NCBI GenBank assembly: GCA_037447655.1
Contig: JBBHKE010001907.1
Span: 94,460-158,459, forward strand
DNA: 64,000 nucleotides
Direction of reading: 5' to 3'
Source of the DNA: Zygnema cylindricum
Taxonomy: Eukaryota; Streptophyta; Zygnematophyceae; Zygnematales; Zygnemataceae
This document shows, piece after piece, positions 1-36,771 of the stretch (positions are counted from its first letter, which is position 1; each line of letters starts with the position of its first letter). The notes beneath the pieces are model-generated. The model saw nothing but the letters and a program-made list of their open reading frames with translations, searched no databases and was not told the DNA's origin. The translations under genes and the position numbers were made by a program.

Positions 1-226
1 ATTTTTATGTACCCGTTTGACACGACAATTTTGAATTGTGTAGGAACTTTTTGAGATGAGAAAGAACCTAAAAATCTTACAGAAGTAACAACAAAAAACA
101 GAAGTGAAGACAAAGAAGGAAGCTAGACAAATAACAAAGAACAAAATTGGAAAAGAAAACTTAAAAGGCAAAGCAGAGTTACCTGTCTAATTATCTGGGT
201 AATTATCTGTCTATATAACCTATCTA

Positions 227-615
<389 letters not shown>

Positions 616-1565
616 ATGTCTATTTATCTGTCTATCTATGTATCTACATAATTATCTATCTATGTAATTATCTATTTAATTATTTGTCTAATTATCTATT
701 TAATCTAATTATCTATCTAATCTAATTCTCTATCTTATCTAATTCTCTATCTTATCTAATTCTCTATCTAATCTAATAATCTATCTAATCTAATTATCTG
801 TCTTATTATCTAATCTAATTATCTAATCTAATTATCTGTCAAATTACCTATCTAATCTAATTATCTGTCTAATCTAATTATCTATTTTATTTAATTATCT
901 ATCTAATCTAATTATTTGTCTAATTATCTGTCTAAATATCTATCTAATCTAATTCACTATCTAATCTAATGATCTATCTAATCTAATTATGTATCTAATC
1001 TAATTATCTATCTTATCTAATCATCTATCTATTCTAATTATCTATCCAATTATCTGTCAAATTATCTAATCTATTTATCTGTCAAATTACCTATCTAATC
1101 TAATTATCTATCTAATCTAATCATATGTCTAATTATCTGACTAAATATCTATATAATCTAATTCACTGTCTAATCTAATGATCTATCTAATCTAATTATA
1201 TATCTACTCTAATTATATATCTAATCTAATCATCTTATATTCTAATTATCTGTCCAATTACTTGTCAAATTATTTAATCTAATTATCTCTCAAATTACCT
1301 ATCTAATCTAATTATCTATCTAATCTAATTATCTATCTAATTTTATTATCTATCTAATCTAATTAGCTGTCTAATTATCCGTCAAATTACCTATCTAATC
1401 TAATTATCTATCTAATTTTATTATCTATCTAATCTAATTATCTGTCAAATTATTTGTCAAATTATCTGTCCAATTATGTGTCAAATTATATAATCTAATT
1501 ATCTGTCAAATTATCTGTCTAATTATCGGTCTATCTATTTGTCAAATGATCTAATCTAATTATCT
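616..1565 (+). repeat. Degenerate TCTAATCTAATTATC repeat, left arm
   Basis: Loose repeats of ATCTATCTAATCTAATT with TCTGTC and CAAATTA variants fill the space between the pure TATC array and the unique core of the fold-back. No coding potential is seen. Confidence 0.9.
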
Positions 1566-2318
1566 GTCATATGTTATATTAACAAATCTTTTATATTTTA
1601 AGTAATAAGTTTACATTAACAAATCTTTTACATTTTAAGTAATAAGTTCTTTACTGAAATTAGCCTCACCTATGGAATTCAACAAGTAGACTGAGATAGG
1701 CACTTGTCTCATCAATCTAATGAAAGTTCTTAAAGGCAAAAAAAATCATCTCCCATTATCTTCCATCGTTTGAGTTGTCAGTGGGGATTTTGAGTTTTTC
1801 TCCCTTGATCTGTGTAGGCTGCCTCATGTCAGGTGGTACAATCAAAAAATGGTTGGTTTGTATTTTCTTGAATTAATAGACTATCTCCCATGTTTTCTCA
1901 ACTTACAATAAACAAATATAGCTAAACAGTCAAATTGTCAAACAGTTAAAAAGTCTAAGGATTTTTTATGGTTTTTAAGGGTTTTTGTGAACAACCAACC
2001 ATACATTTGTTTAATGTGATTTAAGAAAACATGGAAGATAGTCTATTAATTCAAGAAAATACAAACCAGTTATTTTGTGATTGTACCATTTGACATGAGG
2101 CAGCCTATGCAGATCAAGGGAGAACAATTCAGAATCCTCACTGACAACTCAAACGATGGGAGATAATTTTTTTTCGCCTTTAGGAACTTCACATTAGATT
2201 GATGAGACAAGTGCCTATCTTAGTTTACTTGTTGAATTCCTTAGGTGAAGTTAATTTCAGTAACGAACTTATTACTTAAAATGAAAACACTTGTTAATGT
2301 AACATATGATAGATAATT
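1566..2318. repeat. Non-repetitive hairpin core of the fold-back
   Basis: About 330 bp on each side pair with each other. For example, the block containing GAATTCAACAAGTAGACTGA near 1675 has its complement near 2225, and AGACTATCTCCCATGTTTTC near 1880 has its complement near 2030. The loop is about 1900-2030. A 46-bp stretch ending in AAGTAATAAGTT is duplicated on the left only (about 1580-1650). No gene is seen. Confidence 0.85.
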
Positions 2319-3240
2319 AGATTACATCATTTGACATTAGATAGATAGACAATTAGATAGATAATTTGATAGATAATTAGATTAGATAATTTGACACATA
2401 ATTGGACAGATAATTTGAAAAATAATTACACAGATATTTAGACAGATTATTAGACAAATAATTGATGGTAGATAGATAGATTAGATAGAATTAGATTAGA
2501 TAGATAATTTGACGATAATTAGATCAGATGTAGACGATTGGATTAGATAATAAGAAGTAGGATCAACTCTTGGATAATGAATTAGATTGAATGAATAAGA
2601 TAGATGTTAGACATTAGGTGAACGCATAAAAGATTAGATAGAATTAGGTGATAGATAATTAGGATCAGATATAATTAATTAGATAGGTAATTGACGGATA
2701 ATTAGGGAGATATATGACCATAACCGACGATAATGGTGGACTAGATAGTGGAGCGGAAAAATAGACGTAGATGAGATGAATTAGATAGTAATTAGATTAG
2801 ATCGAGTGAATTAGGGTAAGAATTTCTAGACAGATAATTGGTATCATATAAAGATTCATAATAATAAGATTAGATGGATAATTAGATAAGATAGAATAAT
2901 TAGATAATGGGCAATTTGGAAATAATTAGATTTGATAATTAGATTAGATTATTTGACAGACAATTAGATTAGATAGATCATTAGATTAGATAGTGAATTA
3001 TATTAGATAGAGAATTAGATTATTAGAGAATTAGATTAGATAGAGAATTAGATTAAATAGATAATTAGATTAAATAGATAATTAGATAAGATAGATAATT
3101 AGACAGATAATTGGATAGATAATTTCATAGATAGATAATTGTAAAGACACATAGATAGACACATAGATAGACATATAGCTAGATAGATAGATGGACAGAT
3201 ATAATTAGACAAGTTATATAGACAGATAATTCCCCATATA
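2319..3240 (+). repeat. GATA/AGATAATTAGATT repeat, right arm
   Basis: Reverse-complement counterpart of the left arm. The stretch 2460-2900 is far noisier than the rest, with many irregular single-base departures from the repeat. No coding potential. Confidence 0.9.
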
Positions 3241-3263
3241 ATTAAACCGATAACTCTGCTTTG

Positions 3264-6585: not shown

Positions 6586-7471
6586 TGTTGTCTTTTTGGA
6601 AAGCTTTCAGTCTCAGAGCAGCGCAGCATCACAGCAGCGCAACTGCTATACAGACAAAGCAGCGCAGCTGCTATACAGACAGAGCAGCGCAGCTGCGCTG
6701 CTATACAAACAAAGCAGCGCAGCTGCTATACAAACAGAGCAGCGCAGCTGCTATACAGACAAACCAGCGCAGCTGCTATTCAGACAAAGCAGCGCAGCTA
6801 CTATACAGACAGAGCAGCGCAGTAGCAGAGCAGCGCAGCAGCATAGCAGCGCAGCAGCAAAAGAGCAACACAGACAGGACAACCCAACCACGACAATATT
6901 TGATATGATCCGTACGGACAACGCAGCGTCTGATATTCTTAATGTGATTCTGTACATAATAGATCAACTGCGATAGATACGATTCTAGTCAAACTTAGTG
7001 GGTTACTCAGTGGTAACTTAGTGGGTAACTCAGTGGTAGCTTAGTGATAGCTCAGTGGTAGTTTAGTAATAGCTTAATGGTAGCTTGACAGATTAGTGGT
7101 AGCTTGGTGGTTTGACGTATCTCTCAGTACATTGGTATTGCCAATGCAACACAAGTATAAGACTTAGGACTCAGAACATATAATGTATCCAAACTTCAAG
7201 TAGTAAAAACCGCAAACAGTTTTTGGGAAACTTCTGAGTATTATATTTTGAGTGTTGTCGGGTCAATTGTGCTGAAACTTTGGGAGTTGTCAGTGTTTAT
7301 GCTATTCTATATTCTCATAGAGTTTTGTGAGGTTTGGATGCTTGTATAAGAATTGGTGAGCACTTAAGAACAGCTGTTTGGTAGGATTCTTGATAGGTTC
7401 TGAGAGTGTATCATGTCTACTTCTACTACTACTGCTACTCCTCCACCTGCACCGGTGGTTGTAGAACAACA
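6586..7471 (+). repeat. Copia A 5' LTR (886 bp)
   Basis: It begins TGTTGTC and ends GAACAACA directly before the primer site. The gag start codon at 7413 lies inside it, 59 bp before its end. It carries a longer minisatellite than the 3' LTR, and an 18-bp piece near 7365 that the 3' LTR lacks. Confidence 0.92.
6616..6870 (+). repeat. 25-bp minisatellite in the LTR
   Basis: Repeats of a unit close to CAGCGCAGCTGCTATACAGA plus CAAAG, with variants, about 8-9 copies. The same array in the 3' LTR (11800-11885) has only about 3 copies. The glutamine/alanine-rich open frames across it are a by-product of the repeat. Confidence 0.9.
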
Positions 7472-8333
7472 GGTTATGGGCCTGTCATCAAGAATTCCTA
7501 TCTTTTCCGGGGATAAGTATGTTTACTGGGCGGATATGGTGGAGACACATTTTGAGAATGTCAATCTTCTGGATATATTGGATGGTTCGCTGGATGAATC
7601 TGATCCGTCATGGTCTAAGAAAAATACGCAAGCTCGTTCTATTCTGAAATTTTGTATATCTGAGGACTTAGCTATGTCTCGGATAAAAATGAAAAAAGCA
7701 ATTGATATCTGGAAATCCCTTAAAAGTGATTATGAAAAGGCTAATGTCTAGGAAGAGCTTCTATTGGCTGGAAAAATTTGGGACTATAAGTACACTGGTG
7801 GTACAATGGCTGAATATTCTAACAAATTTCGTATCCTTGTAGATGCACATGCTTGTGCAGGTGGGGTGTTTCCTCTGTTTCAACAGGCAGCATTGCTTAT
7901 GAGGGGTCTCCCTCGTAGTATGAAAGGAGCATCTGACATGCTCAAACAGAGAGATAAAGCTAGCTGGACTTTACAGTTAGCCATCAATATTTTATTAGAG
8001 GAGGAAGCTACATCTAATATTCTCAATGTTGAGCAAGTAGAGGCTTTTAATTCAGACTTTGGGAGGAAAGGTCAATTTAATCAGCAACGTAATCAGTTTA
8101 CCCAGGTCAGACAGTTTAATCAGAATGGAAATAGACAATCAAACAATGCATGTTTTTATTGTAGTGAGAGAGGTCATGGATACAAATTCTGCCCTAAACT
8201 TAAACAAGCTAACGATACAGGTTTATACAGGCCAGGATGGCAACAAAGTCAGTTTTACAAAAGCTTCACGAGGCCTAAACCTCGTGGAAATGCAGTGTTT
8301 TCAACTTCTTCATCCTTCAGGACGAGACTCTGA
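7413..8333 (+). pseudogene. Copia A gag (broken)
   Basis: Capsid/nucleocapsid region of a Ty1/copia polyprotein, which would package element RNA. The start ATG (7413) is inside the 5' LTR, and the frame runs through the LTR end and the primer site. An in-frame TAG at 7749-7751 interrupts it; reading continues in the same frame to 8331. A CCHC zinc knuckle (CX2CX4HX4C, starting C-F-Y-C) lies near 8150-8195. A frameshift at about 8300-8325 separates gag from the acidic linker that leads to the protease. The UBN2/gag-polypeptide fold is inferred from position and from similarity to the other copia gag genes here. Confidence 0.85.
7472..7482 (+). other. Copia A primer-binding site (half-tRNA type)
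   Basis: GGTTATGGGCC directly follows the LTR. It is complementary to the anticodon-side end of the 5' half of initiator tRNA-Met, the primer type known for Drosophila copia, not to the tRNA 3' end. It is translated as part of gag (V-M-G). Confidence 0.8.
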
Positions 8334-8404
8334 CATTTTCTGAGGAGGACGACACGGATCTATTCGCTATGGCGGTAGCAATGGAGGGCACAAAGGACCC
8401 TTGA

Positions 8405-11400
8405 TGGATAATGGATACAGGAGCGTCAGCCCACATGTGTTGGAACAAGGCCATCTTCAAAAATCTGAAAGCAACGGCGGAGAAAAATATTTATTATGCT
8501 TGTGGAATGAGTGTCCAATCACGTGCTATGGGTGATGTGTCCTTGCTAGTTGATGTAGAAGGAAAAGCAATTGAAAGGACTCTTCACAATGTCTTATTTG
8601 TGCATGACTTTAAGAAAAATATGTTTTCTACGTCGTTGGTAGAGAGTAAAGGCTTTGAGGTTACGTTGAAAAATGGTCGGCAGGTTGTTAGCAAACATGG
8701 CAAGGTTGCGGTTACAGGTACTAGAGATAGTAGCAAGATGTATCGCATGGATATGGCTAATACCAAGGAGAATGATGTTCTGTACTCCGGTGTTTTGTAC
8801 TCATATGAGTTGTGGCATAAAAGGTTAGGCCATGTCAACTATGATAGTTTGAGGAAAATGGTCATTGCTCGAAAAATAGAGGGTGTATCAATCACAGATG
8901 AGCCGGTCAAAACTTGAGATGGTTGTGCTTTAGGAAAAATCCACCGATTGCCATTTCCTACAGAGTCTGAGCATCGGTCAACGAAACTGTTGCAACAAAT
9001 TCATTTGGATGTTTTTGGTCCTACGAAGGTTCCATCCACCGGGGGGATGAAGTATATGGTCACCTTCACAGATGATTTCTCCAGGTTTACAAAAGTTTAC
9101 TTCATGAAGGAGAAGAGTGAAGTGTTTGGTCAATTCAAACACTATAAGGCATGGGTTGAAAAACTTCATAATTTACCTATTTTGCATCTCAGATCGAACA
9201 ATGGTGGTGAATATACATCGAAAGAATTTGAAACCTTTTTACTCGACAATGGTATTAGTCATCTAGTGACTGTTCCATATTCACCGGAACAAAATGGGGT
9301 ATCGGAAAGACTAAATAGAACTCTCACGGAGAGCTCTAGGTCGATGCTTGCAGATAAAAATGTGGATCCGAAATTCTGGGCTGAGGCTCTAAACTGTGCA
9401 GTTTATATTAAGAATAGGATAGGATCAAGATCGGTAGAAACTACTTCTTACGAGATCTGGACAGGTAGCAAACCTGATGTTAGCCATTTCAAAGTCTTTG
9501 GTAGTAAATGTTTTATCTTAGATATATCTACGGATAGATGGAAAATGGAACCGAAGGGATTACCAGGTATTTTGTTAGGATATGATGATCACTCAAAAGG
9601 TTACAAAGTCTTTGTCTTTGAGAAACAAAAAATAGTTGTAGCAAGGAATATCATTGTCAAAGATGAACTAGACTCGATAGACTTATTTCAAATGACAGAG
9701 CAACAAAAGCAGCAAAAAGTACAAGAGTATGTCATTTTAGATTGCATGCAAGAAATTGTCCCGCAGATGCAACAGACTCCGGTGGTGACTTCGGAGTCAG
9801 ACTCTCTCCAACTTCCTCAACAACTTCGGGTCCAACCGGACCAACAACAGTCAATACCTGTGGATCGCAACCAGCGCGATCAGCTACACACTGATCGCAA
9901 CCAGCCCAACCAGCGCAATCAGCGCAATGCGCAGCATCTGACGATCTCAGCCTCATAATTTCCGGGGGGAAGAAGATCCAGTAGCCGCCTGCAAGCAAGC
10001 TCTCACTTTGCGTACTCGGCAGCCTCAGGGGAGCTCTTGACCATCCACGAGGCCTTCTCGTCACCAGAGCGAAATCATTGGATCGAGGCAGCAAACGACG
10101 AAATGAAGTCGATCATGGAGGCTCAAACATGGGAGCTTGTGGACCTTCCTCCGGGCCAAAAAGCGATCAGCAGCAAATGGGTATTCAAGGTGAAGTTAAA
10201 TCCCGACAACACCATTGAACGTTATAAGGCCAGACTTGTGGCAAAGGGGTACAATAAAAAGGAATGAATCGATTTTGAACAAACATTTTCTCCGGTTGTA
10301 AGATTTTCGACAGTTAGGATTTTGCTGTCCTTGGCTGCTATAGAAGATATGGAAATCCATCAGATGGATGTAAAGACGGCTTTTTTGCACGGAGAACTAG
10401 AAGAAACCATTTACATGCAGCAGCTTGAAAAGTATGTGGAACCAGGAAAAGAGCACTTACTATGCAAGTTGCTAAAATCTCTGTACGGCCTAAAACATGC
10501 CCCCAGACATTGGAATCTGAAGCTTGATGAATTCCTAACTAGCCTAGGATTTCAAAGGATAAATTCTGATCACTCTGTCTAGGTTCTAAAGGGTGAAAAT
10601 ATGATAGTGTATATAGCGGTGTATGTAGATGATTTACTATTAATTAGCAAATCAATGGCTGAAATTAACAAAATCAAAACTGCTCTAAACTCACGGTTCG
10701 ACATGAAAGACCTCCGTGAGGCAAAATACATTTTGGGTATCCAGGTAGAGAGGGACAGAAATAAGAAAGAAATAAAACTGACTCAAAAAGAGGCTATTGG
10801 AAACATGTTAGATGAGTATGGAATGCGTGGGGCAAAAGGATGTCTAACTCCAATGGAGTTTCGGCAGAAGTTGGAGGGAGAAGAGACAAAACCAGGTGTC
10901 ATTGTTAGCAAGTATTTAGAATCAGAGGAGAATGATTCTATGACATAAATACCTTACAGACAGATAGTGGGAAGCTTAATATATTTCATGAATTGTACCC
11001 GTCCTGACATTGCTGCAGCACTCGGGGTACTGTGCAAGAGTCTAGAGAATCCGAGAAAATCTGACTTTGATGCAGTAAGGAGAGTCTTAAGATATTTGGC
11101 AGGAACCAAGGACCTCAAACTCACACTAGGCGGAGGAGAAGTAAAACTGGAAACTTGGAGTGATGCAAGCTATGGCGACATGCCAAGCCAGAAATCCACC
11201 ACGGGATTCGTTCTACAAGTTGGGAACAAGACTTGCTGCTGGAGCAACAAACTTCAAAAGGTGACAGCACTGTTGACAATGGAGTCAGAATATATGGCAG
11301 CAAGCTCGGCCCTCAAAGAACTCTTATGGGTAAAATCCATGTTTCAAGAACTAGGATACATGCAAATTGGTCCACAGGTGATCTGGTGTGATAACCAGGC

Positions 11401-11608
11401 TGCCATTGCCATTGCTTCTAACCCGAGTCATCACTTCAAAAGCAAACACATGGATGTACGCTTACACTTTGTAAGAGAAAAGGTGTACTCTAGAGTGATT
11501 AAATTATGTTATTTGCCAGATGCAAAAATGATTGCTGATATGCTCACTAAAGCTCTTCCTTCTCCTAAGCTGAAGTATTGTAGGGACGTAGTGGGACTAA
11601 GTGAATAG
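8405..11608 (+). pseudogene. Copia A pol: protease, integrase, RT, RNase H
   Basis: All of pol lies in one reading frame from the protease motif D-T-G-A (from 8411) to 11608. It is interrupted only by stops: TGA 8402 just upstream, TGA 8915, TAA 9956, TGA 10265, TAG 10580 and TAA 10946. In order: protease; GAG-pre-integrase (W-H-K-R-L-G-H, about 8812); integrase core (L-D-V-F-G-P near 9007, N-N-G-G-E-Y near 9200, N-G-V-S-E-R near 9295); reverse transcriptase with Y-V-D-D near 10622; RNase H ending A-D-M-L-T-K-A-L-P. The second integrase Asp is Asn (S-N-N-G-G-E-Y), which should remove catalysis. TGA 8915 stands where a conserved Cys of the C-x2-C motif is expected. The element is dead. Confidence 0.92.
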
Positions 11609-11754
11609 TTGAATTGCTGCACTGCTATACTGCCACTCTGCGATAAGTCCACCATTGAGATATAGTTGGACAGGGTGACTTGCTAATTGTTATATTGCTA
11701 TGTTGGGATGCTGCGCTAGTTTAATATCGCACCTGCGCCGATATATTGAGTCTA

Positions 11755-11768
11755 AAGCTTTAGGGGAG
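11755..11768 (+). other. Copia A polypurine tract
   Basis: AAGCTTTAGGGGAG directly precedes the 3' LTR. Plus-strand DNA priming is the expected role. Confidence 0.6.
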
Positions 11769-12474
11769 TGTTGTCTTTTTGGAAAGCTTTCAGTCTCAGA
11801 GCAGCGCAGCAGCACAGCAGCGCAGCAGCTATACAGACAAAGCAGCGCAGCTGCTATACAGACAGAGCAGCGCAGCAGCAAAACTGCAACACAGACAGGA
11901 CAACGCAACCACAAGAAAATTTGATATGATCTGTACGGACAACGCAGCGTCTGATATTCTTAATGTGATTCTGTACAGAATAGATCAACTGCAATAGATA
12001 GGATTCTAGTCAAACTTAGTGGGTTACTCAGTGGTAACTTAGTGGGTAACTCAGTGGTAGCTTAGTGATAGCTCAGTGGTAGTTTAGTGATAGCTTAGTG
12101 GTAGCTTGACAGATTAGTGGTAGCTTGGTGGTTTGACGTATCTCTCAGTACATTGGTATTGCCAATGCAACACAAGTATAAGACTTAGGACTCAGAACAT
12201 ATAATGTATCCAAACTTCTAGTAGTAAAAACTGCAAACATTTTTTGGGAAACTTTTGAGTATTATATCTTGAGTGTTGTCGGGTCAATTGTGCTAAAACT
12301 TTGGGAGTTGTCAGTGTTTATGCTATTTTATATTCCGATAGAGTTTTGTGAGGTTTGGATGCTTGTATAAGAATTGGTGAGCAGTAGGATTCTTGATAGG
12401 TTTTGAGAGTGTATCATGTCTACTTCTACTACTACTGCTGCTCCTCCACCTGCACCGATGGTTGTAGAACAACA
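11769..12474 (+). repeat. Copia A 3' LTR (706 bp)
   Basis: It begins TGTTGTC and ends GAACAACA, and is nearly identical to the 5' LTR outside the shortened minisatellite and the 18-bp loss near 12382. It is followed by the duplicated CGAAT. Confidence 0.93.
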
Positions 12475-12712: not shown

Positions 12713-12932
12713 CTCGGCGGCGCGTCCGTTGAATAAACTGTATAAATATACGGAATACACCGTACAAATATTGCCGATAGTTATTGGTGGTGTTATCGCA
12801 ATTAAAAACCAAATATAAATGTTTTTTATCATAACAACAATACCGAGATATCGTGCCGATATATTGATTATCGATAATCCATAAAGTGGAATATATCGCT
12901 AATAGGGAAAATCGTAAAGATACCCAACATTA
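12713..12932 (+). mobile_element. Right-end fragment of a hAT-like element
   Basis: It aligns with the right end of the element at 14479-15431: GCGCGTCCG, GCCGATAGTTAT, then several TATCG-rich blocks. It ends GATACCCAACATTA, close to the family terminus ACCCAACACTA. The left end is missing. Confidence 0.6.
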
Positions 12933-12999
12933 GTAATTTGGTATAGCACCAAATTATTTTGACGTATATATCAACAACTTTTCCGCGCGAGAGCAAATG

Positions 13000-13190
13000 T
13001 CGCGAAGCCAAAATCGCATAAGTGACATAATCCCACGAACAAAACCGCTACTATGAACCGCACAAGCGAAAGAACACTTGTACGGACATCTCACAGGTGA
13101 AATCGCATGTGTGAAGACGTCGTAAAGATGAAATCGCACGTTTTTTGTAAGAGTCGCACAAGGTAGATCGCAAGCATGCAAGTGTATCCA
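13000..13190 (+). repeat. Degenerate AAATCGCA-containing repeat
   Basis: The motif AAATCGCA or a near variant recurs about five times at irregular 30-50 bp spacing. No gene is seen. Confidence 0.4.
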
Positions 13191-13216
13191 GATTTACGCC
13201 TACGGTTTAGAAAAAG

Positions 13217-13404
13217 TAGTATTGTGTATTGTCAATAAATTTATCATGATACAATCGATACGGATAAATATCGGTTATCGAACGATGAGGGGTCTAGATA
13301 TATCGCTCGAAGACCAACAAACTACTTATAGTACGTTATATAATAATACTTTATAAAATATTGTATTATATTATTGACTGTATATAGCGTGGCATGCCTT
13401 ATTT

Positions 13405-13415
<11 letters not shown>
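13217..13415 (+). mobile_element. Left-end fragment of a hAT-like element
   Basis: It begins TAGTATTGTGTATTG and follows the left end of 14479-15431, including the shared block ATTATTGACTGTATATAGCG (13373 and 14653). It is cut off by the GA repeat and assembly gap. Confidence 0.65.
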
Positions 13416-13443
<28 letters not shown>

Positions 13444-13453
13444 NNNNNNNNNN
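13414..13453. repeat. (GA)n microsatellite running into a 10-N gap
   Basis: A GA run ends at 13443. Positions 13444-13453 are N, an assembly gap of placeholder length. Sequence on the far side is not a continuation of the GA run. Confidence 0.97.
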
Positions 13454-14037
13454 GAGTGTCTAAAGAATGCTAAAGCAGTTTACCGTAGCCTCAAAAGTCT
13501 GGGAACCTTACCTTTTCAGGCATGGTTTTCTTTGCGCTGTTTTGTGTTGTTTAACACATGAAACTACCTGCGTTTGCCTGTTTTGTATAACTTATCACAT
13601 GGAAAGCGGCAGCGAACTTAAGCAAACTTTAAAGACATTTTTATAAATGTGGACGCTTAAAAAAAAAGTACATTTTGCGTCATCATCGAATTTAAGATGT
13701 ACTACATGTTGTCGTCTTGTGTTCTTCGACCCACGGCCACGCCAAAAAACGTCATCATCAAACTTTACTTCAAAATACAGGGCTGATGTGTTTTAAAACA
13801 AAGTATTTTTCAGAAACAAATAGGAACACGTATTCGCAGGTGTAAATATTTTTACAGAAATTTCAAACGAATTCAAGCGACGGCGAAAGGTACACTATTC
13901 AATATGTTTTGTCCGTTTGCGTCCATCAAAGTACACAATTTGTTGTGTTTTGTCGCGTTTCTTTTGGTACGGACTTTTCCATTCCAAGGGTCTGAAAACT
14001 CCGATGCCATTTGACGAAATCGTAAGAAATCTGTGAG
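13454..14037. repeat. Perfect 206-bp mirror repeat (reversed, not complemented)
   Basis: The left arm is 13454-13659 and the right arm is 13832-14037. Reading the left arm backwards, base for base and without complementing, gives the right arm exactly: 206 of 206 positions, compared line by line. For example, the left arm begins GAGTGTCTAAAGAATG and the right arm ends GTAAGAAATCTGTGAG. The 172-bp spacer (13660-13831) shows no mirror relation. The left edge coincides with the end of the N gap. No coding sequence is recognised. Confidence 0.97.
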
Positions 14038-14478
14038 GGCTCCACATCAAGTCGCACACGCCGCCTCTCTCACGCGGCCTCGCATTCTCGCGACGTCCAA
14101 GGCGAATTTTAAAATTTGGTGCGACATCACAGATTGTACACTGTCAACAGTCATCACGGGTATTGTCGACGTATACAATCGTCACGCCCTTAAGTGACAA
14201 CTTCGTTTAGTACACATAAGGTCACCCGAATCCAGGTCCGCCGGATCTGCGCTAAAAAACAAAACAAATCTCTAAGTTTGAAGTACATAGAGACGCACCC
14301 TAGGAAAAAAAACATTAGTGCCATTGACATTATCGTTAGTTCGAGGGGTAACATTTAGAGTTTACAATATAGGGTCATTGACAATACTAACGATACACGG
14401 GGTAGATTTGCCGATTTGGCATACAGAGGAATTGTGGAAATTGGAAAAATTTGTGCTCAGAGCCCTTTCACAAAAAAG
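14038..14478. other. Non-coding stretch, no recognised feature
   Basis: CpG-rich at the start (14050-14120), then AT-rich. No long open frame, RNA gene or element end was recognised. Confidence 0.5.
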
Positions 14479-15431
14479 TAGTGTTGTGTATCGGTAAAAA
14501 AAAATTCGCGATAACACCGATACCGATAGTTATCGGTTATCGAACGGTCAGAGGTCCCGATATATCAGTCTGAGACCAACAAATTCCATATCGGCGATAA
14601 CTTAACAAAAATATAGTATGCATACAATAGTACATTATAACATTTTGTATTATATTATTGACTGTATATAGCGTGGCATGCCACGTATACAAATTTGTTC
14701 TGTCTCTGTTTAACTGCGACTTATTACGGGCAACACAGCACATTAACGTTGGGCGATTAGCTGAACAAAAATTTTACGGCGACTTACGGATTTTGGACCG
14801 ACAAACTAGTGAACATGGAACGGTAAAAGGACAACGGACACAAAGTACAACGGACGCAATATAACATTCAGCGCGCCGCCGGAATCGAGCGAACAACTTG
14901 GAATGAGAAAATACGAGCGGACGGCCAGCGTGAACACCGACATCTCGGAATGGCTCTTTTGGCAGCTTATGCCGAAAAAGGCAGCAGATTGACGTGGCAA
15001 GTCCCCAATGGATCCCAAAGAAGCAAGGGACAAAGCCATGGCGTCATATGTGAAAGGTACATCGTTTTTACTGGATCCAAACCAAAACCGTACAACTCTC
15101 ATGGCGGCTACTGTACTTTTTATGCTTTTACAACTGTACAATACAGTGATCTGATTAGAAGACACCTTAGGAGATAGGGGTTGTGAGTAGGGCGCGTCCG
15201 GGGAATAACACGTATAGTTCACTGTATTGATCGTACATTTATCTGTACGGTCCGTATAGATATCGCCGATAGTTATCGATATCGGTGTTATCGTCGATGA
15301 TAACCGATAAATATAGGCTATTTGTCGGCGATAACACCTATAACGATGTATCGTACCAATATATCGATTATCGGGTACCCGAAAAAGGCCCATATCGGCT
15401 ATCGGCAAATCCTTACCGATGCACAACACTA
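14479..15431 (+). mobile_element. hAT-like non-autonomous element (953 bp)
   Basis: Terminal repeats TAGTGTTGTGTATCGGTAA and its imperfect complement TTACCGATGCACAACACTA bound the element. The flanks CAAAAAAG (14471-14478) and CAAAAAGG (15432-15439) match at 7 of 8 positions, the 8-bp duplication expected of hAT transposons. Subterminal TATCG-rich repeats are typical transposase-binding clutter. No transposase is recognised; the longest frames lack a domain. Confidence 0.8.
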
Positions 15432-16188: not shown

Positions 16189-16404
16189 CACCGTGAATCG
16201 CTATTAGCGTCAATGTTTTTTTGCCACTTAAAACATATTTTATCCGTACACAGTTGTTGGATCTTCGATTTGAGACCGCCAATCGGAGGCTGAGAATGAT
16301 GCCTTTCAATCGCAACCGTCAGATCCTGAATCCGACAAGAGTGTACGGAGAAAATATGTTTTAAGTGGCGAAAAAACCCTTGACGCTAATAACGATTCGC
16401 GGTG
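16189..16404. mobile_element. Short palindromic MITE (216 bp)
   Basis: Flanked by TA (16187-16188 and 16405-16406). Ends CACCGTGAATCGCTATTAGC and its near-perfect complement. The interior is itself an inverted repeat around GCCACTTAAAACATATTTT, so the whole element folds back. A relative lies at 36554-36771. Confidence 0.88.
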
Positions 16405-16504
16405 TAGCTGTGAGTCTGCGACTGACAGTGAAATCGACGTCACGCAACCTGACGTTCGGATGTGCTGTTCGTAAAGTTAGCGCGATGAACCGATCGATGT
16501 TTGA

Positions 16505-16645
16505 AACATCTTTTCTCGTACACATTTGTCGAATTGTAGATCTGACGGTTGCGATTGAAAGGTAAGATTCTGAGCTTCCGATTGGCAGTCTCAAATTGAA
16601 GATCGGACAGGTGTTTAAGGAGAAAATATGTTTTCAGTGGCGAAA
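16505..16645. mobile_element. Partial copy of the short palindromic MITE interior
   Basis: It repeats the interior of 16189-16404 (ACATCTTTTCTCGTACAC, GATCTGACGGTTGCGATTGA, GGAGAAAATATGTTTT) without the CACCG ends. Confidence 0.7.
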
Positions 16646-16904
16646 ATATTATTTAGATCGCTAGAAAAGGACAATTGCGTAGCCATTCATGATTTGATTT
16701 CGTGGCGGTTACGAATAAAATAGTACGGAATAGCAAAAATATGCAAATCAAACTTATGTTCCGTCTGTTTCACGCGTGCCAATGTTTTTCTGAGATTAAC
16801 TCCGAAATTCGTGCGGATCGATCCCTTTTAACGACGGCAAACGCTCACTGCAATTCGGTGTACACGTTTCATCCTCGTGTCCGTCCATCACACGCGTGGA
16901 AAAT

Positions 16905-23639: not shown

Positions 23640-23830
23640 AGTAATCTTAGTCTAGACTGGACCGTCGGCTAAAAGACTGGACCGACGGTCAAAGGACTTC
23701 TACGTAAAGGACTAGACCGACGTATGTAACGAAAAGGTACAATTGACTGGACCGACGTATGGAAGTACGGACAGGACCAAAAAGTGAGACGTGCGGACAA
23801 GTCGGTCAACAAGACTTGACCGACGTAAGA
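23640..23830 (+). repeat. Degenerate repeat of GACTGGACCGACGTATG
   Basis: Six to seven variants of GACTGGACCGACG with spacers containing ACGTA. No gene. Confidence 0.65.
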
Positions 23831-23972
23831 AAACGTACGAACAAGACAAAAAATATCCTACGCTAAATGTCCTGTAACAGTGACGCGTGGCTGGACACAT
23901 CAGGCGATATTATCGGCAACACAACACGAGGCATAATCTGCAACCCTAAAACAGTGGAAGTTCAGAATTTTG

Positions 23973-24229
23973 GAGACACCTGTCTATTTTTAGTACCATA
24001 AACTCTACGGTATAGTACACCGCGAGTCGCTATTAGCGTTAATCACTCTAATGCGGCGCCCCGAGATTTTCACCCTAATTCTTAAATAGAATGATGAAAA
24101 TAACCCTAAAAACCAAACTAGAGCGGCTGATTTCCTTGAAAATCCCCAAATTCCTAATTAGCGTTAATCACACTAATTGTTATTTAGACACCTGTCTATT
24201 TTTAGTACCATAAACTCTACGGTATAGTA
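23973..24229 (+). repeat. Truncated MITE bounded by a 45-bp direct duplication
   Basis: A segment from AGACACCTGTCTATTTTTAG to ACTCTACGGTATAGTA occurs before (23973-24017) and after (24185-24229) a CACCG MITE end with a short interior (24018-24184). The second copy is followed by another MITE. Confidence 0.8.
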
Positions 24230-24771
24230 CACCGCCAATCGTTATTAGCGTTGTGTACGCTAATTCCGTCCCGCTTTTTTTTATTTTTTATTCTCCTTTA
24301 GTGTAGTTCATTCTATTTTTTTTCTTTATTCTATCTAGGGTTATTTGCAGTACGTTTTCTCTTAAATAGAGTGGTGCTGGTCAGTGTCAGACCGTACATA
24401 AATGTACCTTTTTTAAGTTAAAAAGTACAATAAATTAGTTTTAGTAACCGCGGATGCATGAGAATGTGCGTTCTAACAAGGAAAAAAAACTAGATCGTAA
24501 AAAATACCGTTCGCAAGTATTCGTCCGACAGCCGCGTTTCGACTGTGTGAATGTACGATTTGTGTATGATTTGATAGAGTTTGTACGGAGACCTATATTA
24601 GTGTAAGCATGTTTGGGACCGACATTTCTTTTTTCAAAGATCCAAATTACCATAGTCAAACAAATAGAATGAATGATTTTTTCCAAAATTCTCAAATTCT
24701 TAAATAGCGTACACCACAGTAATTATTTTTATACGCTAAAAAAACTTACACGCTAATAACGATTGGCGGTG
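24230..24771 (+). mobile_element. Long MITE (542 bp)
   Basis: Ends CACCGCCAATCGTTATTAGC and its exact complement, with TA on the left and a mutated flank on the right. The interior contains the GGTCAGTGTCAGACCGTACA block shared with 25010-25060 and, inverted, with 25630-25690. Confidence 0.88.
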
Positions 24772-24852
24772 GTTCGTGGATTTTTGTTCAACCGGAGGTT
24801 TCCTGCCCGCATCGACTTGCCGATATTCTGTGTTGCCAATGCATTGATAGTA

Positions 24853-25350
24853 CACCGCGCATCGTTATTAGTGTCAACAACTCTAATTTGGGTTCTTAAA
24901 ATTTTGTTTTTTTTCCCCAAATAGGATACATGATTTTAAAAATTTTTTTTACGTTAATTAAGGTACCGTACAAAATAGGGTAAAGAACGAAAGTACACTA
25001 ATATCTAAACAGTGTGGTGTACGGTCGATGTCAGAACGTACATAAATGTACCTTTTCAAGTGAAAATTTTACAAAAAATGAATTAAATCAGACGCGAACG
25101 CATGGGAACGTGCGATAAAAAAGTGGGATTGGTCTGACACGTAAATTAGTCTGACATGAACGGATATTTAAATTTAACAACGGTGTACGATTTTTTATAT
25201 CTTGTTTGGATACATATAATAATGTATATAATCGTACAGAAAATTCCCATTTTTGCTGTTCCAAATTAGCATTAACGCCGAAATTATAATACACCTTTTT
25301 TTTATTAAATTTCAAATTCTTAATTAGCATCAATTACGGTAAATTTACTT
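24853..25350 (+). mobile_element. Long MITE, left end and interior
   Basis: TA then CACCGCGCATCGTTATTAGTG, followed by the family interior (TACGGTCGATGTCAGAACGT near 25020). No clear right terminus. Confidence 0.65.
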
Positions 25351-25428
25351 CCACACTATTTAAACCTTGACACTAGCGTCTTCAATTTTGAGGGCCACAC
25401 TAAATACAACCTCAAATTGACCAACCAG

Positions 25429-25470
25429 GCAGTGTGGGACGATAAAAAAAATAAAATACCACACTGCCAA
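25429..25470. other. Perfect 10-bp hairpin, GGCAGTGTGG / CCACACTGCC
   Basis: The stem arms flank a loop of about 20 bases rich in A. No T-run or gene context suggests a terminator. Confidence 0.7.
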
Positions 25471-25509
25471 AAAAATTACCAAAACCTACGGACCAACCCC
25501 GTTGGCGTT

Positions 25510-25795
25510 CACAAAGTCGAAACGCGGCAGTCAGACGAATGTGTGTGAACGGGATTTTTTACGACATGGTTTTTTTCCCTTTTTAGAACGCAAATTCTCA
25601 TGCGTCCGCGGTTACTAAAACTAATTTATTGTACTTTTTAACTTAAAAAAGGTACATTTAAGTACGGTCTGACACTGACCGAACACCACTCTATTTAAGA
25701 GACAACGTACTTTCATTTTTTACGGTACTTGGAGAATAACCCTATTTAGAGTAATGAAAAATATAGAGTAAACTACGCTATTTGAGAATTTTCCC
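25510..25795 (-). mobile_element. Inverted fragment of a long MITE
   Basis: Reverse complement of about 24340-24570, including the GTCGAAACGCGGC, TTCTCATG and CGGTTACTAAAACTAATTTA blocks. Confidence 0.75.
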
Positions 25796-28182
25796 GGTTT
25801 TTTTTTTTTCCCGGTTTTTTTTCCCACGGAATGTCATCCTACGCCGTGTCATTTCGCTAAAAAATTCCGTCCGGCGGCGTGCGCTGTACTTCGATCTTAC
25901 GTCAGATTCGGACGTTCGTACAGGAGTGTGCACGACGCACACACATACAGTATGCCTACGTTGCGAGAGTTTTGTGCAAAGTTTTGTGCGCCTACCAAAG
26001 GCCTACCATAAAAAAGCCTACTTTTCAACTATGGCCCGGCCCCCCAAATTTGGCAACAGAATCCGTTCCGGATCCGACGCGGGCGGTCGGTTAACGGTCG
26101 GTCACGGTTTCGGTTGACCGTTTGCGACCTCTGGGACAGATATACCGTAGAAGCGTCAATTTTAACTGACCGCGATTTCTTGGCATTGAGTATTTTGGCT
26201 CGCGCTCGTTTCGACGTCGAAAATGCCAATTTGGATTGGACTCCCGACAAGTCTGTTATTGTCGTTTGGCACTATCTAACGACAAATTTGTTTTGGACCG
26301 GAACACGGAAAGGCAGCACATATCTACCTGGATGTGACGAAAAGTGAAAATTATGCGCCTACTAGACGACGAATATGCGGGGGGACGTCGCTTGATTTTC
26401 CGCGTGGTCCAGAATCCAAGTACGTGGCTACGTACGGCTCATTTGTCACCCCCCAATTCCGGTCATTTGCTTTTAGAGGCAACTAAACGACGCGTCTTGT
26501 CTTTGTAGTTTGTTTACGCGACAAAATGATTTCGGCCCATATTGTTATCTCCCCAAATTAGAAGTACAGTGTTGCCGATGAACGTTTTTTGTCACTATCT
26601 ACAATATCAGGTAGTCGGATCGCTCGGCAATCAGTCATATTGATAATCGGACGTACCGCGTTGGCTCACACCGGAGCAACATTACGGATTTCCATGTTTG
26701 CGGCACTCTCTCCATCCATGTGCAGATCCTGGATTATTTTTGCCTCCCCGAGTTCCATGTCCCGGGGAAATTTTCTATCCAAGTGAAATTTCAAATTCGA
26801 GGTGGCATCTTTGTGAGGCTGTAATTTTTTTTTTTTCTAGTCAATTTAGGGGAAAATGTCCGTACATGGACGCGGCAGCTTTTGCAGTTATAACGTAAAG
26901 TTCTAAATTTAGACTCACCGGTTAACACGTGGCAGCATTTTACAAAACTCTTGAGTCTTGTATCATTTTACAATATCCAAGTGATTACTTGGACAGTTGG
27001 CCCAGTTGGTCTCATGAGAGCCACTTCAAGACAAAATGCTCGTTAACAAGGCAAACGACAAAACTCGTTTCGCTTCCATCCAAGAGTTCGAATTGCTTGG
27101 AAAAAAATCCCCTACGAGCAAACCCCTAATAGGTGAAGCTTTACTGAATTACTGCACATGTAGCCTCCCGCTTCGCCGCTATGATTGTTTGTCGGCTTTT
27201 TGGAGTGACGAGCATTCACATCTTTTACATTTCAGTTGTCTTTTGTTTGTTTCTTCATTCTCGAGAAATTTCTAACAGTTTTTAGCTTGAATAACGTTCA
27301 CAAGATTCACATTCCTAGCAAAACGTCGTACTATGTTTCAAGGTACGCACTGCATGCTTTTATTTTCCCGTCCGTACATGGAATGCTGAGTTCCTTTCTT
27401 CATCGTACGTCTTTCAATGCCAGCTTCTACTGTGACTGAATTGTAAAACCTTTAGTAGGCGAGTCGCTTACTAATTAGGGTTAGCACACCAGTTAGACCA
27501 TCTTTATCTTTTATTGTTTGTGTCACTTTTGTCGAAAAGTGTCGTACAATGCCTGGCTGAATGGAGGTGAACATAAATGTCTGAAGAGCTTGGAGCAGCT
27601 GAATCGTCTGCTCAGAAAGGTTTTCCTTATGTTTCTTTTTCACAGTTTCGTAAAGCTAATATATTATAAGCTGGAGAGAGCTGCAAAAAAAGTTTGAAGT
27701 TTAACACCTGATTGGAAAAAATGATTAGAAAACTAAAATACCAACTAGAAGAGTTTGCAATTGTGTCTGCTACAGGATCAAGCTGAGCCATAAATCTGTT
27801 TCAGAGAACAAAAGTACGTATTTTACCTCAAGTACACTCACAAAAGGAGTAAAATAGGCGTTTAGTGCGATAAGACTGTCAGGGGACCGCGTCTGTTTTA
27901 CTCCTTTTATTCATACAACACAGCGAAAAACCACACTTTTGTTCTATGCTCTGTTTAACAGTAAACTGAACATTTTGGATATGTATTCTGTTTCTAAAGT
28001 AATATAGTTTATGTCAAATGAACAGCATCTAACTGACTATTCTTAATTTTATTAGAACTTGCATGTGGCACCTATAGCACTTTTACCATATTCTTTTGTT
28101 TGATCAATATCAAACAAGTAGTTCCTAAAATTCTTAAATTAAACTTCTTTAACTGTCTTAAATGGAATTTCTTTTTTACAGC
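25796..28182. other. Non-coding stretch upstream of the GT92 gene
   Basis: Short open frames only. A 76-bp repeat at 26035-26110 is shared with 12605-12680. A 13-bp perfect inverted repeat AAAAGGAGTAAAA / TTTTACTCCTTTT lies at 27842-27854 and 27896-27908. The promoter and any 5' non-coding exon of the GT92 gene should lie here but were not pinned down. Confidence 0.45.
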
Positions 28183-28228
28183 GGTGTTTGGTATTTTTGC
28201 GAGGAGAAGGCGTAAAAATTCACAGCAA

Positions 28229-31200
28229 ATGAGGACAAACACGGGAGTCCCCAGTCAGCCATCCAGGTCGTGGCCAGTACCGCCTCTGAAAACACCAAAA
28301 TCTAGCCGGTTTTCTCGCGTTTTACGTCCTTGGAACATGGTTTTGTCAAGAGATTGTTTCATGTTTGTGTTTCAGTTCGGGATTGCCTTTCTAATTTTTC
28401 AATTCCTAAGAACTGGGCAGTACATGGAATCTGAGACATCTTCTCGGATAAACCAGGAAAGTCTGGACGAATGGGATAGGACTGGAAATTCTGCTATGCT
28501 TGAGAGCCTATCAAGCAGCAGCAACTTAAAGCTGGGTAGGTTGCTGTACTCACTACAATATACAATATACATTCATTCAAGTTCCATTTTCTCAAATTAG
28601 TAATGCTGGTTGAAGTTTCAGCTCAAATCTAGTATGGTTAATTTTTGAGCATAGACTGCAAAAATTACATGTTTGGAAGAAAGGACATAACTTGATGATT
28701 TAATTTTCCATTTTAGTAGTATATAGATTATTAGAACTTGCAGTTAAGTTTCTTTTTGTTATAGGTAATCTGTATAATATGCTAAGAAATTCTCACTCAA
28801 TATTGTATTTAAATGTTCACAGTCAGAACCATTAATGTAAAACTGTAATATACTGGTTTCCTTCAGAGATTTCTGAAATAGCGTTGATACATCAGTTAAT
28901 GTTTGCATTGACTAAAGCTTGTAGTAATGATTGATGTTCTGATAATAACTGATGTGCTTGTGTAGTTTATTAATAAAGTTGTCGAGTTGAGAAATGCTTG
29001 ATGAAACTGGTAGAGCTCAATGAAAACTAGTATTCTTTTTATGCTGTAAAATTTATGTATTGCTTCTTGTCAGCAATGTTGTTTTTGGAATAACGTTGAA
29101 TGAAGCTACTTTGCATACTACTTGAATTTCCTTAAATGTAAGCTAAATCTATGTACACAAAATGATGACTTTTTGAAAACAATTCTATTTTAACTGTTGA
29201 AGTAAACTTGACAGTCAGCTGAACCATGTTATCCTTATCCCTTAGTTAAATCCATCTCTCAAGGCTTTAACTCTGGACGGTGTAAATTCTATGGGCCGTT
29301 TTTCTTAGGTGTACACATAAACTAATATGGATGCAAATCTTTGTGGGTTGGACGTCTCCAACTAGGCCGTGTTTTAGTGTTTTAATGTGAATCATAGTTT
29401 TTCTAATTCATCCTATTGGTAGGTCCAGGCTAATGACTGTGGATGTTGCACCAATACACGTGTCTGTAATGGCTTGACATCCTTTTTGGATATTTTTTTG
29501 ATTCGATTTTGTCTCCTCAGTCCCTCCACTCCAACAGCTTTGGCTTAATGCATTACTGTACGCTGAGTTTGCAGGAGCTGATGTGGCGGGAGCAAACATA
29601 GATCACAACGGATCAACGGCAAATCCATGCCTCACAGAACGCCCCTTACTCCTACGAGCTTTGCACGAAAAGGTGCCTGTCCCCTTCTCGGGGGTCGGCA
29701 TTCATAGTTTCATCCTTCGAAGTTCATATCGCGTCAACAACCGACACTTTGTTGCAATCGGATTGTCAGCTCTCTCATTGCACAGTTTGAAGACGGTAGG
29801 AAAGTCTGGACTTTAATCTTTTTCAAGTTCTGCGTAATTGACCATAAACTGTTTTGTTAAGATAGAGGCGACTGTGCAACCAAGTTCCAAATTATTGAAG
29901 CTTATTTATTAACAAGCGCATAGGCTGTTCCTCGAACGTCTGAGATTGATTGCAGGGAGTTCACTGTGAATGGCAAGCCTCTAATCAAAAGCGAGTCGAG
30001 GGCAGACAATTTATTGTGTGGCCTGGAGAACATCATGATTTGATGTATGAATCTGCTATATACCATTGCGAGCTTGAGGAGGGGACAAACCCGGTATTGG
30101 AGGATCTCTTGTTATGACTATTGGTGAGTATTTGGCTGCTGTTGAACAACAAAGCTTGAATAGGATATGGAATGGAAGTTTTCAATCTGCTGAATTTTTG
30201 GTTTTTCAGTCGTCGCTGCATGTATGGAGTAATCCCGCATCTTGAAGGACTGCAAGTTTTCCTTTTCTGGAAGACGCTCATCATCTTATATGCAAGGAAG
30301 ACTGTCTATGGTTATATCCTCTTTTTTTTTCAAACACATTGAAACCTCAGATAGTGTCAAATTACGATGTTTTCGGGGATAACTTTATGTTGTTTCTGTA
30401 CATGCCTCTCTTTAATTGCTGAGTAAGACCACCCTTGTTGGGTTTGAGAGGGGGAGGTCAGATGAGGAGTTGACTGTTGTTTATACGGAGGAGACTGGGC
30501 GAACGCAATTAGAGCCATCTGCGCCTTTCAAGTACAACCTTGCATTCTGTTCCTTCCCTGTTTATCGAGATGCAGTTCCCCAACGGTTGTCTGAATGGTT
30601 GCAGGTAACAACCATTCTCTTGGGGTCATTATATCTTGAAGAAAAACACCTTGTCCGAACAACCTTCTAAACCTCCTCCATTTTCAATAATTGTGTGGCG
30701 GTGGTGAGGAAGAGTTACATATTATCGTTGATACTGAAAGTGAGCTGCACACTTAAGGCGAAGAGAGAAATCTGCTGAGTGTAGCCAGGTGCTTTACTTC
30801 TATTTGAAAAGGTCATATTATATGAAGTTAAGTACATAATGAATCGTGCAATGGTATATTTTTGTACGAGGTATTATACAGAAGTCCAGCGCCTACAAAA
30901 TGATGGATAAATTAGCATTCTCTTCCTTGGCTAATGAAAAGTTTAGTTGACTTTTTGTTTACTGTATGGTCATAAAGTAAACTTAGTATTGATCCCGATT
31001 TGAATTGACGGACGGCCTTATATGCCTGGATTATTGTTTATTTACCCGGTAGAAAATATGTTGTTACAGAACTATTTAATCCATGATCTTGGCCTCCTAC
31101 AAATCCTCTGACCTCACTTCATATGAAAAATCGTACATTTTATATTTTTTTCTGTGCGGTTGAAAAATACGTACACTGTCTCATACTCTTTTACTTCTTA

Positions 31201-32739
31201 ACATAGGTTTACTTGTTAAATGTTTTCCTGTAGAAGGGGGGATTCAACAGATCCTCAGCTTGATCGCCTTCTTAGGATAGTGGTTGTTCCAAAACTATGG
31301 AGTTACAAAACTTGACATCAGTCAGGTTATGGTGGGAGATTTATGCAGTACGCTTATCGCTATGTGGGTGTCGACTATTTTGTGCTCCATGATGGGGGGC
31401 CCATTGATGAGTCATTTATGGAGGTGAGAAAAAGGAGCACGATCTATCTTGAAATATGGTAGTTTAAGGGTTATATGGTAGGAGACGCAATTTGTTTTAG
31501 AGTGTTGGTAGGCGCTTGATGTTGACAAATTTGATGACTTTGATGGAGGTGTTTTTGAAGTTGAGGTTTGTATCCTTATCTGTAGTCTTTTCAATGTCTC
31601 TAACATGTTCAGTTCCATGCTTCCTTATCAACCATTTACCAGAAGGGCAAGGATATGAAGGCTCTTCCTATTTGTGAAGGCATGTAGAGGAATTCTGAGT
31701 GAATAAGATACGAATACTGATGAAGGGTACCTAAATACATCAACAGACTCGGAGGAATTAGAACTGTGTCTGCAAGAAATATATGGATGTCCTATAAGTC
31801 AATCTAAGTTTGGATAAATTGCATAACTTATTTCAGCCATGCCTGGGCATTTTCATTCACTTCCTAGGTTAGCTTCCTTGATGTCACTTAACAAGATAAT
31901 GCCCAGGGGTTAATCAAATCTATGTTTGATGTCAGCACTAATAATTCTTATCATGTTTCCTTCCTGGCGTTGATATACTTTCAGGCTCTTAATCCATACT
32001 TAGAGTCTGGCTTGATGGAGATTATAGATGTTCGAGCTCAGTACCAATATGAATCCAAGCACAATGTTTTGACGCTAAATGACTGTCTCTATCGAATGCG
32101 ATGGTTGGCGAACTGGGCTCTTTTTGTTGACTTCGACGAATATCTTTATGCTGAACCGCCTCAAACTGTCCTTGGCATTCTAAAAGAGCATTCTGAAGCA
32201 CCATACATGACATTTGGAAGCCTCTGGTGGTCAGTGACAATGTGCAGGTGGGCCTGGTGGTTTATTGTAGGAGCAGTGATTTGTAATGGGATGCATTTGC
32301 ATTTAGATTTGCTTTGAGTTCTTCATCTTGAGTAGGATTTTTCATCCCGTGGCTTTGAGAAAAGTAATCCTTGTTAACCAGTATAGAGTCGAATCATCGA
32401 GGGAAAAACATATTATTGTACAAATTTCAATTCCTTAGTTACTGAAAACGAATGAATGCCCTTGTCGTATGCGTCAGTGTTGGCTTGAACCATACTGTGG
32501 TAGAGGTTTAGTTCACGAGTCTATTATGTCAATCATAACAACATCCACCCATATTAACCATTCGCAGAAATAACAGTGGTCAATCACAGGCTACCATAGT
32601 ATTCACACTCTCATTCCCACACGCAAGGCATTATTCCATAAACCTAAGATCCTTCTTTGTGTTTTCTTGTTACATCATACTTTTCCCCTAATAGTGTTTA
32701 ATTTTAATAAAATTGATTATCATAATATTATTGAAGTTA

Positions 32740-35632: not shown

Positions 35633-36550
35633 GGGTTTTTGACAGGTTGGAAAATAACATGGACGTATCTTACGGACGTTTTCGTAAGATTGTGATCCGT
35701 AGAAAAGTATTCTCTGTCACTGTCACTGTCAACTGTGTATCTATGTGTGTTAGTTCGGTTTTTCTCTTTTTGCACACAAGGCCAGCTCAAGAATTTTGCT
35801 CGATTATAGATGGAGGAGATGTAGGTATCCTATAGGTGTGATTGTAAATTAGGGGCTCCACAAGGGACGTATTTTCCTTGGAGAAGTTTTTTTATTTGTC
35901 CATAAAGGCTGCTCAATTTTAGCTGTGCCTACTCATTTTGGAGTTTAGTCAATGAGGATCATTATATTATGCAGTTATTGTTGTCTTTGGCTCACACAAG
36001 AATATGTAGAAAGTCGTAACATATGGAGGAACAGATTGGATGACGTCAGCGTAGACAAGTGGAAGGGAAAGTAATTGTCACAGGAGCAGTGTTTGTTTCA
36101 AAGTTAGAATGAAAATCTAATGGAATGCTTACTATTGCGTATTGAATCAAGAGCGTTGATTTTTGGATTTTGTTTTGCACACGGGGAGAGGTTTTATTTA
36201 TTCATCTGCTTGTACCTTTCGGTACGTATTGACGAGATATCCTCCTCAGAATTAATGTCACACCTTTTTTTCTGTAAATGTGGTTTTTGGCCTGCACATG
36301 GTCTGTCCTTCCAAACAAAGTTTTGAAGCATCGGGAACATCTAACCAGATAACATGTCCATTTTTGCCCTTCCTGTCCTCTTCGTCGTTTTGCACACAAT
36401 AGTACACGGAATCCTTGTCACTTCAACCGCCAATCATCAGGTAGCCATAAAGCTATCGGCTTTGGGTGGGATAGGTTCCATTTGGAGGTCAAATTAGTCC
36501 TAGGGTGCACGCAAGAAAACAAAACACTGGGCAACCAAGAGCAATCAACA
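35633..36550. other. GT92 3' flank, no recognised gene
   Basis: Probably includes the 3' untranslated region. Only short frames. No element boundaries seen until 36554. Confidence 0.4.
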
Positions 36551-36553
36551 GCA

Positions 36554-36771
36554 TACCGTGTATCACTATTAGCGTTAATAATTATTTCGCCACTTAAAAC
36601 ATCTTTTCTCCATACACACTTGTCCAATATTCAAATGGAGGCCGCCAATCGGAAAGTAAGTATCATGGCTTTCAATCGCAACCGTTTAGATCCATAATCC
36701 GATAAGCGTATGCGGAGAAAAGATGTTCGAAGTGGCAAAAAAAACATTAACGCTAATAGCGATACATGGTT
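36554..36771. mobile_element. Short palindromic MITE, second copy
   Basis: Same arrangement as 16189-16404: decayed CACCG end, ATTAGCGTTAAT, GCCACTTAAAACATCTTTTC, a GATTGCGG-type middle, then the complements. Roughly 218 bp. Confidence 0.8.

Follow-up and report, generated by a model that had tools for sequence, protein, structure and literature searches.

Is a perfect mirror repeat, in which one arm is the other read backwards without complementing, a feature of the genome of Zygnema cylindricum or a product of the way in which its sequence was put together? The question is raised by the window analysed here, a 64-kb stretch that covers positions 94460-158459 of scaffold C1430 in an assembly of 352,776,454 bp in 2689 contigs. 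We conclude that the mirror is not a real feature and, with a probability of about 0.95, that it is an artefact of assembly software rather than biology.

The mirror pair and the adjacent gap

When one of the segments 13454-13659 and 13832-14037 is reversed without complementing, the two are identical at 206 of 206 positions, as the preliminary description of this DNA had stated, and the match extends no further at either end. From base composition, the expected number of such pairs in the window is ~10^-110.6, and a BLAST comparison of the reversed window with the window itself, with simple repeats filtered, returned this pair as its sole match. Since the arms are reversed and not complemented, they lack the reverse complementarity that defines the arms of an inverted repeat or hairpin. 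An Rfam search of the window gave no match.

The left arm starts directly after a 10-N assembly gap (13444-13453), which is the window's single N run, so that the outer edge of the mirror does lie exactly at the end of the gap, as had been reported. Immediately 5' of the gap there is a 35-nt AG run (13409-13443), identified by Tandem Repeats Finder as an (AG)17.5 microsatellite with 100% matches. The earlier counts of GTAC and CATG in the arms, 0 and 3 in the left and 3 and 0 in the right, proved accurate; the accompanying characterization of the surroundings as GTAC-rich holds in part, the corresponding counts being 4 and 1 in 14038-14700 and 342 and 235 in the window from 3301 on, but 2 and 4 in 12901-13400.

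Mirrors at the gaps of scaffold C1430

Scaffold C1430 was read whole (253,124 bp) and all gaps on this one scaffold were examined (n=4), namely an N run of 8817 nt at 23643-32459 and three runs of 10 nt each at 81871-81880, 107903-107912 (the gap of the window) and 196240-196249. Local mirrors were defined as complexity-filtered matches of at least 22 nt with copies starting no more than 1.5 kb apart; they were sought as exact runs, and their identity is accordingly 100% by design. Five were found, with arms of 147, 77, 82, 206 and 130 nt and spacers of 102, 52, 116, 172 and 228 nt, and no rule was discernible in either set of lengths. All five are flush with the edge of an N run (on both sides of the 8817-N run and on the right-hand side of every 10-N gap), and each of the four N runs has an exact flush mirror, the sequence being different at each. 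The remaining three of the eight gap edges, each on the left of a 10-N gap, carry no mirror, and nothing else that satisfies the above definition of a local mirror was detected across the 253,124 bp of the scaffold. The probability that one random mirror meets a gap edge is ~6.5e-5. Within ~3 kb of the gap edges, a mirror copy of the outermost 30 nt was present in five of eight cases, compared with none of eight for a reverse complement and none of eight for a direct copy. The suspicion that the structure is an artefact, for which mirrors beside other gaps had been named as the sign to look for, is thus borne out at all four gaps of C1430. The three other gaps, each with its flush mirror artefact, fall in loci L096, L097, L091 and L102.

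Relaxing the search added little. With the distance limit dropped, two more pairs appeared, linking 191.6 kb and 196.3 kb of the scaffold, because the parent sequence of the mirror at the fourth gap has a direct paralogue at 191330-192100 that is 98.1% identical. Three weak matches of 78-81%, spread from 71.4 to 205.7 kb, are CT/AG simple repeats. At a threshold of 16 nt, 60 pairs were obtained, and among the 40 that were listed, those beyond the pairs already described are 16-19 nt long. It is conceivable that the 8817-N run is a withheld stretch displayed as N; since mirrors adjoin it on both sides, it is more likely, although not certain, to be a true gap.

Other sequences, those from the same genome being free of N runs, served as controls. 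No such mirror was found in 20 kb of scaffold C1848 or in seven 3.2-kb loci (L083-L089), and 60 kb of scaffold C121 contained none except for one self-overlapping CT-rich 22-mer. Likewise, a set of 81 loci from T7-like phages and viruses, which total 1,575,504 bases and include 4 N runs, contained no mirror of at least 22 nt; many of these loci are closely related to one another, and the set comes from other sequencing projects, so that it bears on the rarity of mirrors and not on the program used here.

The native arm and its dispersed relatives

A search of the same genome with the right arm (13832-14037, plus strand) yielded 40 scored matches, the window itself and 39 others with 90-95% identity; these were drawn from 1683 first-look candidates, and some span part of the arm. 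Seven of the 39 other copies (loci L083-L089) were compared with the window. All seven align with it from 13659-13666 to 14296-14302, with 89-92% identity, and the homology of the window copy to these relatives breaks at a poly(A) stretch near 13660. This boundary was considered as the natural end of the repeat, given that the seven relatives aligned from there, and was ruled out because the relatives extend ~105 bp further left: the 104-107 bp to the left of the junction in L085 match all six other copies, with 75-96% identity, so that seven of seven relatives carry a common sequence of ~105 bp at the point at which the mirror takes over in the window. Because this shared sequence is found exactly at the switch, the window copy of the repeat (13660-14302, plus strand) is cut at the poly(A) stretch, with ~105 bp of the relatives' left part missing and the left arm displacing other sequence.

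A similar break was observed at the fourth gap, where the homology to the 98.1% identical paralogue ends 4 bases from the mirror junction. The mirror is therefore contradicted by homologous copies at two gaps, by seven of seven relatives at the gap of the window and by one 98% paralogue at the fourth. The link of the mirrors to gaps and the displacement of homologous sequence at two gaps are direct observations.

Judged by these alignments, the right arm is genuine, a parent sequence lying within a dispersed repeat, and the left arm (13454-13659) is a spurious copy, the letters of 13832-14037 written backwards and uncomplemented in the place of ordinary family sequence. The proposal that the left arm is the reversed copy, initially based on the tetranucleotide counts, is supported in this way. 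In a leave-out k-mer test, the likelihood ratios in favor of the right arm as native were 0.94, 2.86, 7.03 and 5.05 at orders 1-4; composition, which alone is weak evidence, thus points mildly to the same arm.

In two of the seven relatives, L083 and L086, the repeat is followed on the right by a decayed inverted copy of itself (70% over 669 nt and 79% over 276 nt, respectively), so that the family may form foldback pairs. This observation bears on the rival explanation that fares best, namely, that the two arms are in truth the halves of an inverted repeat (foldback) and that the complement step was lost when the left one was written, for example, in a case-sensitive complement run on lower-case letters, so that an ordinary hairpin-forming locus was miswritten. 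Such a loss would account for reversal without complementing that uses genuine letters of the adjacent flank, and, besides the two relatives, real inverted repeats exist nearby, e.g. 16218-16347/16517-16646. We nevertheless consider it quite improbable: five gap edges on a single scaffold would each have to carry a perfect foldback, and all seven relatives have the common family sequence, and no inverted copy of the arm, directly to the left of the junction.

Origin of the mirrors and sequence context

Under the preferred reading, an assembly artefact, the true start of the contig that follows the gap would lie near 13660, at the poly(A) stretch inside the dispersed repeat. A step of end extension or partial gap filling would then have added to this end of the contig 206 of its own letters, those that lie 173-378 bases in from the edge, backwards and uncomplemented, and left a residual gap of 10 Ns (residual N runs being at least 10). 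An addition of the same kind would have occurred at every gap of C1430, and the underlying fault was probably an error in the handling of direction or strand. The exact runs of 77-206 nt that start right at the gap suggest that finished letters, rather than raw noisy reads, were the source. Some findings count against this reading: three of the eight gap edges lack a mirror, the arm and spacer lengths follow no apparent rule, and the outer end of the mirror in the window, GAG, happens to suit the AG run ahead of the gap.

Assemblies are commonly improved by extending flanks part of the way into gaps, and the minimum residual gap of Pilon is 10. The passages on gap filling in the Pilon paper describe flank extensions that shrink captured gaps (PMC4237348), and in the present case, too, contig ends next to a remaining gap appear to have gained sequence. 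However, proper extension uses correctly oriented reads, whereas here the contig's own letters run backwards, so that Pilon offers a likeness only. Supernova, according to the portion of its description that deals with unresolved cycles, writes for each such cycle a path and then 10 Ns, and the 10 Ns that come after a simple repeat resemble those after (AG)17.5 in the window (PMC5411770). In contrast to what is seen here, this convention gives no reversed copy, and on C1430 the 8817-N gap also has mirrors; neither of the other two 10-N gaps is preceded by a simple repeat. As the origin of the mirrors, the Supernova convention fails on the 8817-N gap with its two-sided mirrors and on the non-simple sequence before the other 10-N gaps. 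Among the titles and opening lines of abstracts covered by a literature search, no description of this artefact was found.

A real biological duplication, in which some process copied a strand backwards, would be consistent with a mirror that is exact and far beyond chance, and the preliminary description had noted that a genuine structure would demand a new copying mechanism. Such a mechanism is unsupported by the data, and we regard the explanation as barely credible: the five local mirrors on C1430 all abut N runs, none of the seven relatives of the repeat has the mirror, and we know of no polymerase that copies a strand backwards. The converse order of events, in which a genomic process that writes a strand backwards produced the mirrors and thereby broke the assembly, so that the mirrors caused the gaps, deserves equally little credence. 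Arms of 206 nt are far longer than typical H-DNA mirror repeats. A triplex-forming (H-DNA) mirror maintained by function is the least plausible explanation of all, since, although mirror symmetry is common to both and polypurine-polypyrimidine mirror repeats are described as an H-DNA-forming motif (PMC9171763), the arms here are 48% purine, are not homopurine and do not make up a polypurine-polypyrimidine tract, a composition that refutes it, and their position beside assembly gaps is already accounted for by the gap.

As an assembly artefact, the mirror is of importance solely as a warning on data quality. The 353-Mb assembly may contain many false stretches beside gaps that resemble normal DNA, escape the usual searches for direct or reverse-complement matches, and could mislead the annotation of repeats, genes and markers. 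A self-search that is reversed without complementing, carried out beside N runs, detects such stretches at once, and they should be masked.

Several other elements were noted in the window. A Ty1/copia retrotransposon occupies 6785-12474, with an integrase ORF at 8918-9958 recognized by Pfam and other copia-like ORFs judged by eye; these ORFs are flanked by direct repeats (6785-7471 and 11813-12474, 91% identical) that look like the LTRs of the element. A search with the integrase retrieved 398 proteins at E <= 0.001, and among the 120 listed, the named ones are mostly from plants; no relative was found in viral_contigs. Broken copia-like copies, 64-91% alike, cluster at 37988-63544 in both orientations and partly form large inverted repeats. 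A genuine inverted repeat at 16218-16646 has 130-nt arms that are 83% complementary and a 169-nt spacer, with related sequence at 36548-36763. Finally, long degenerate tandem arrays extend over 180-3263, of the TATC type on the left and the GATA type on the right, and make up a large imperfect inverted repeat.
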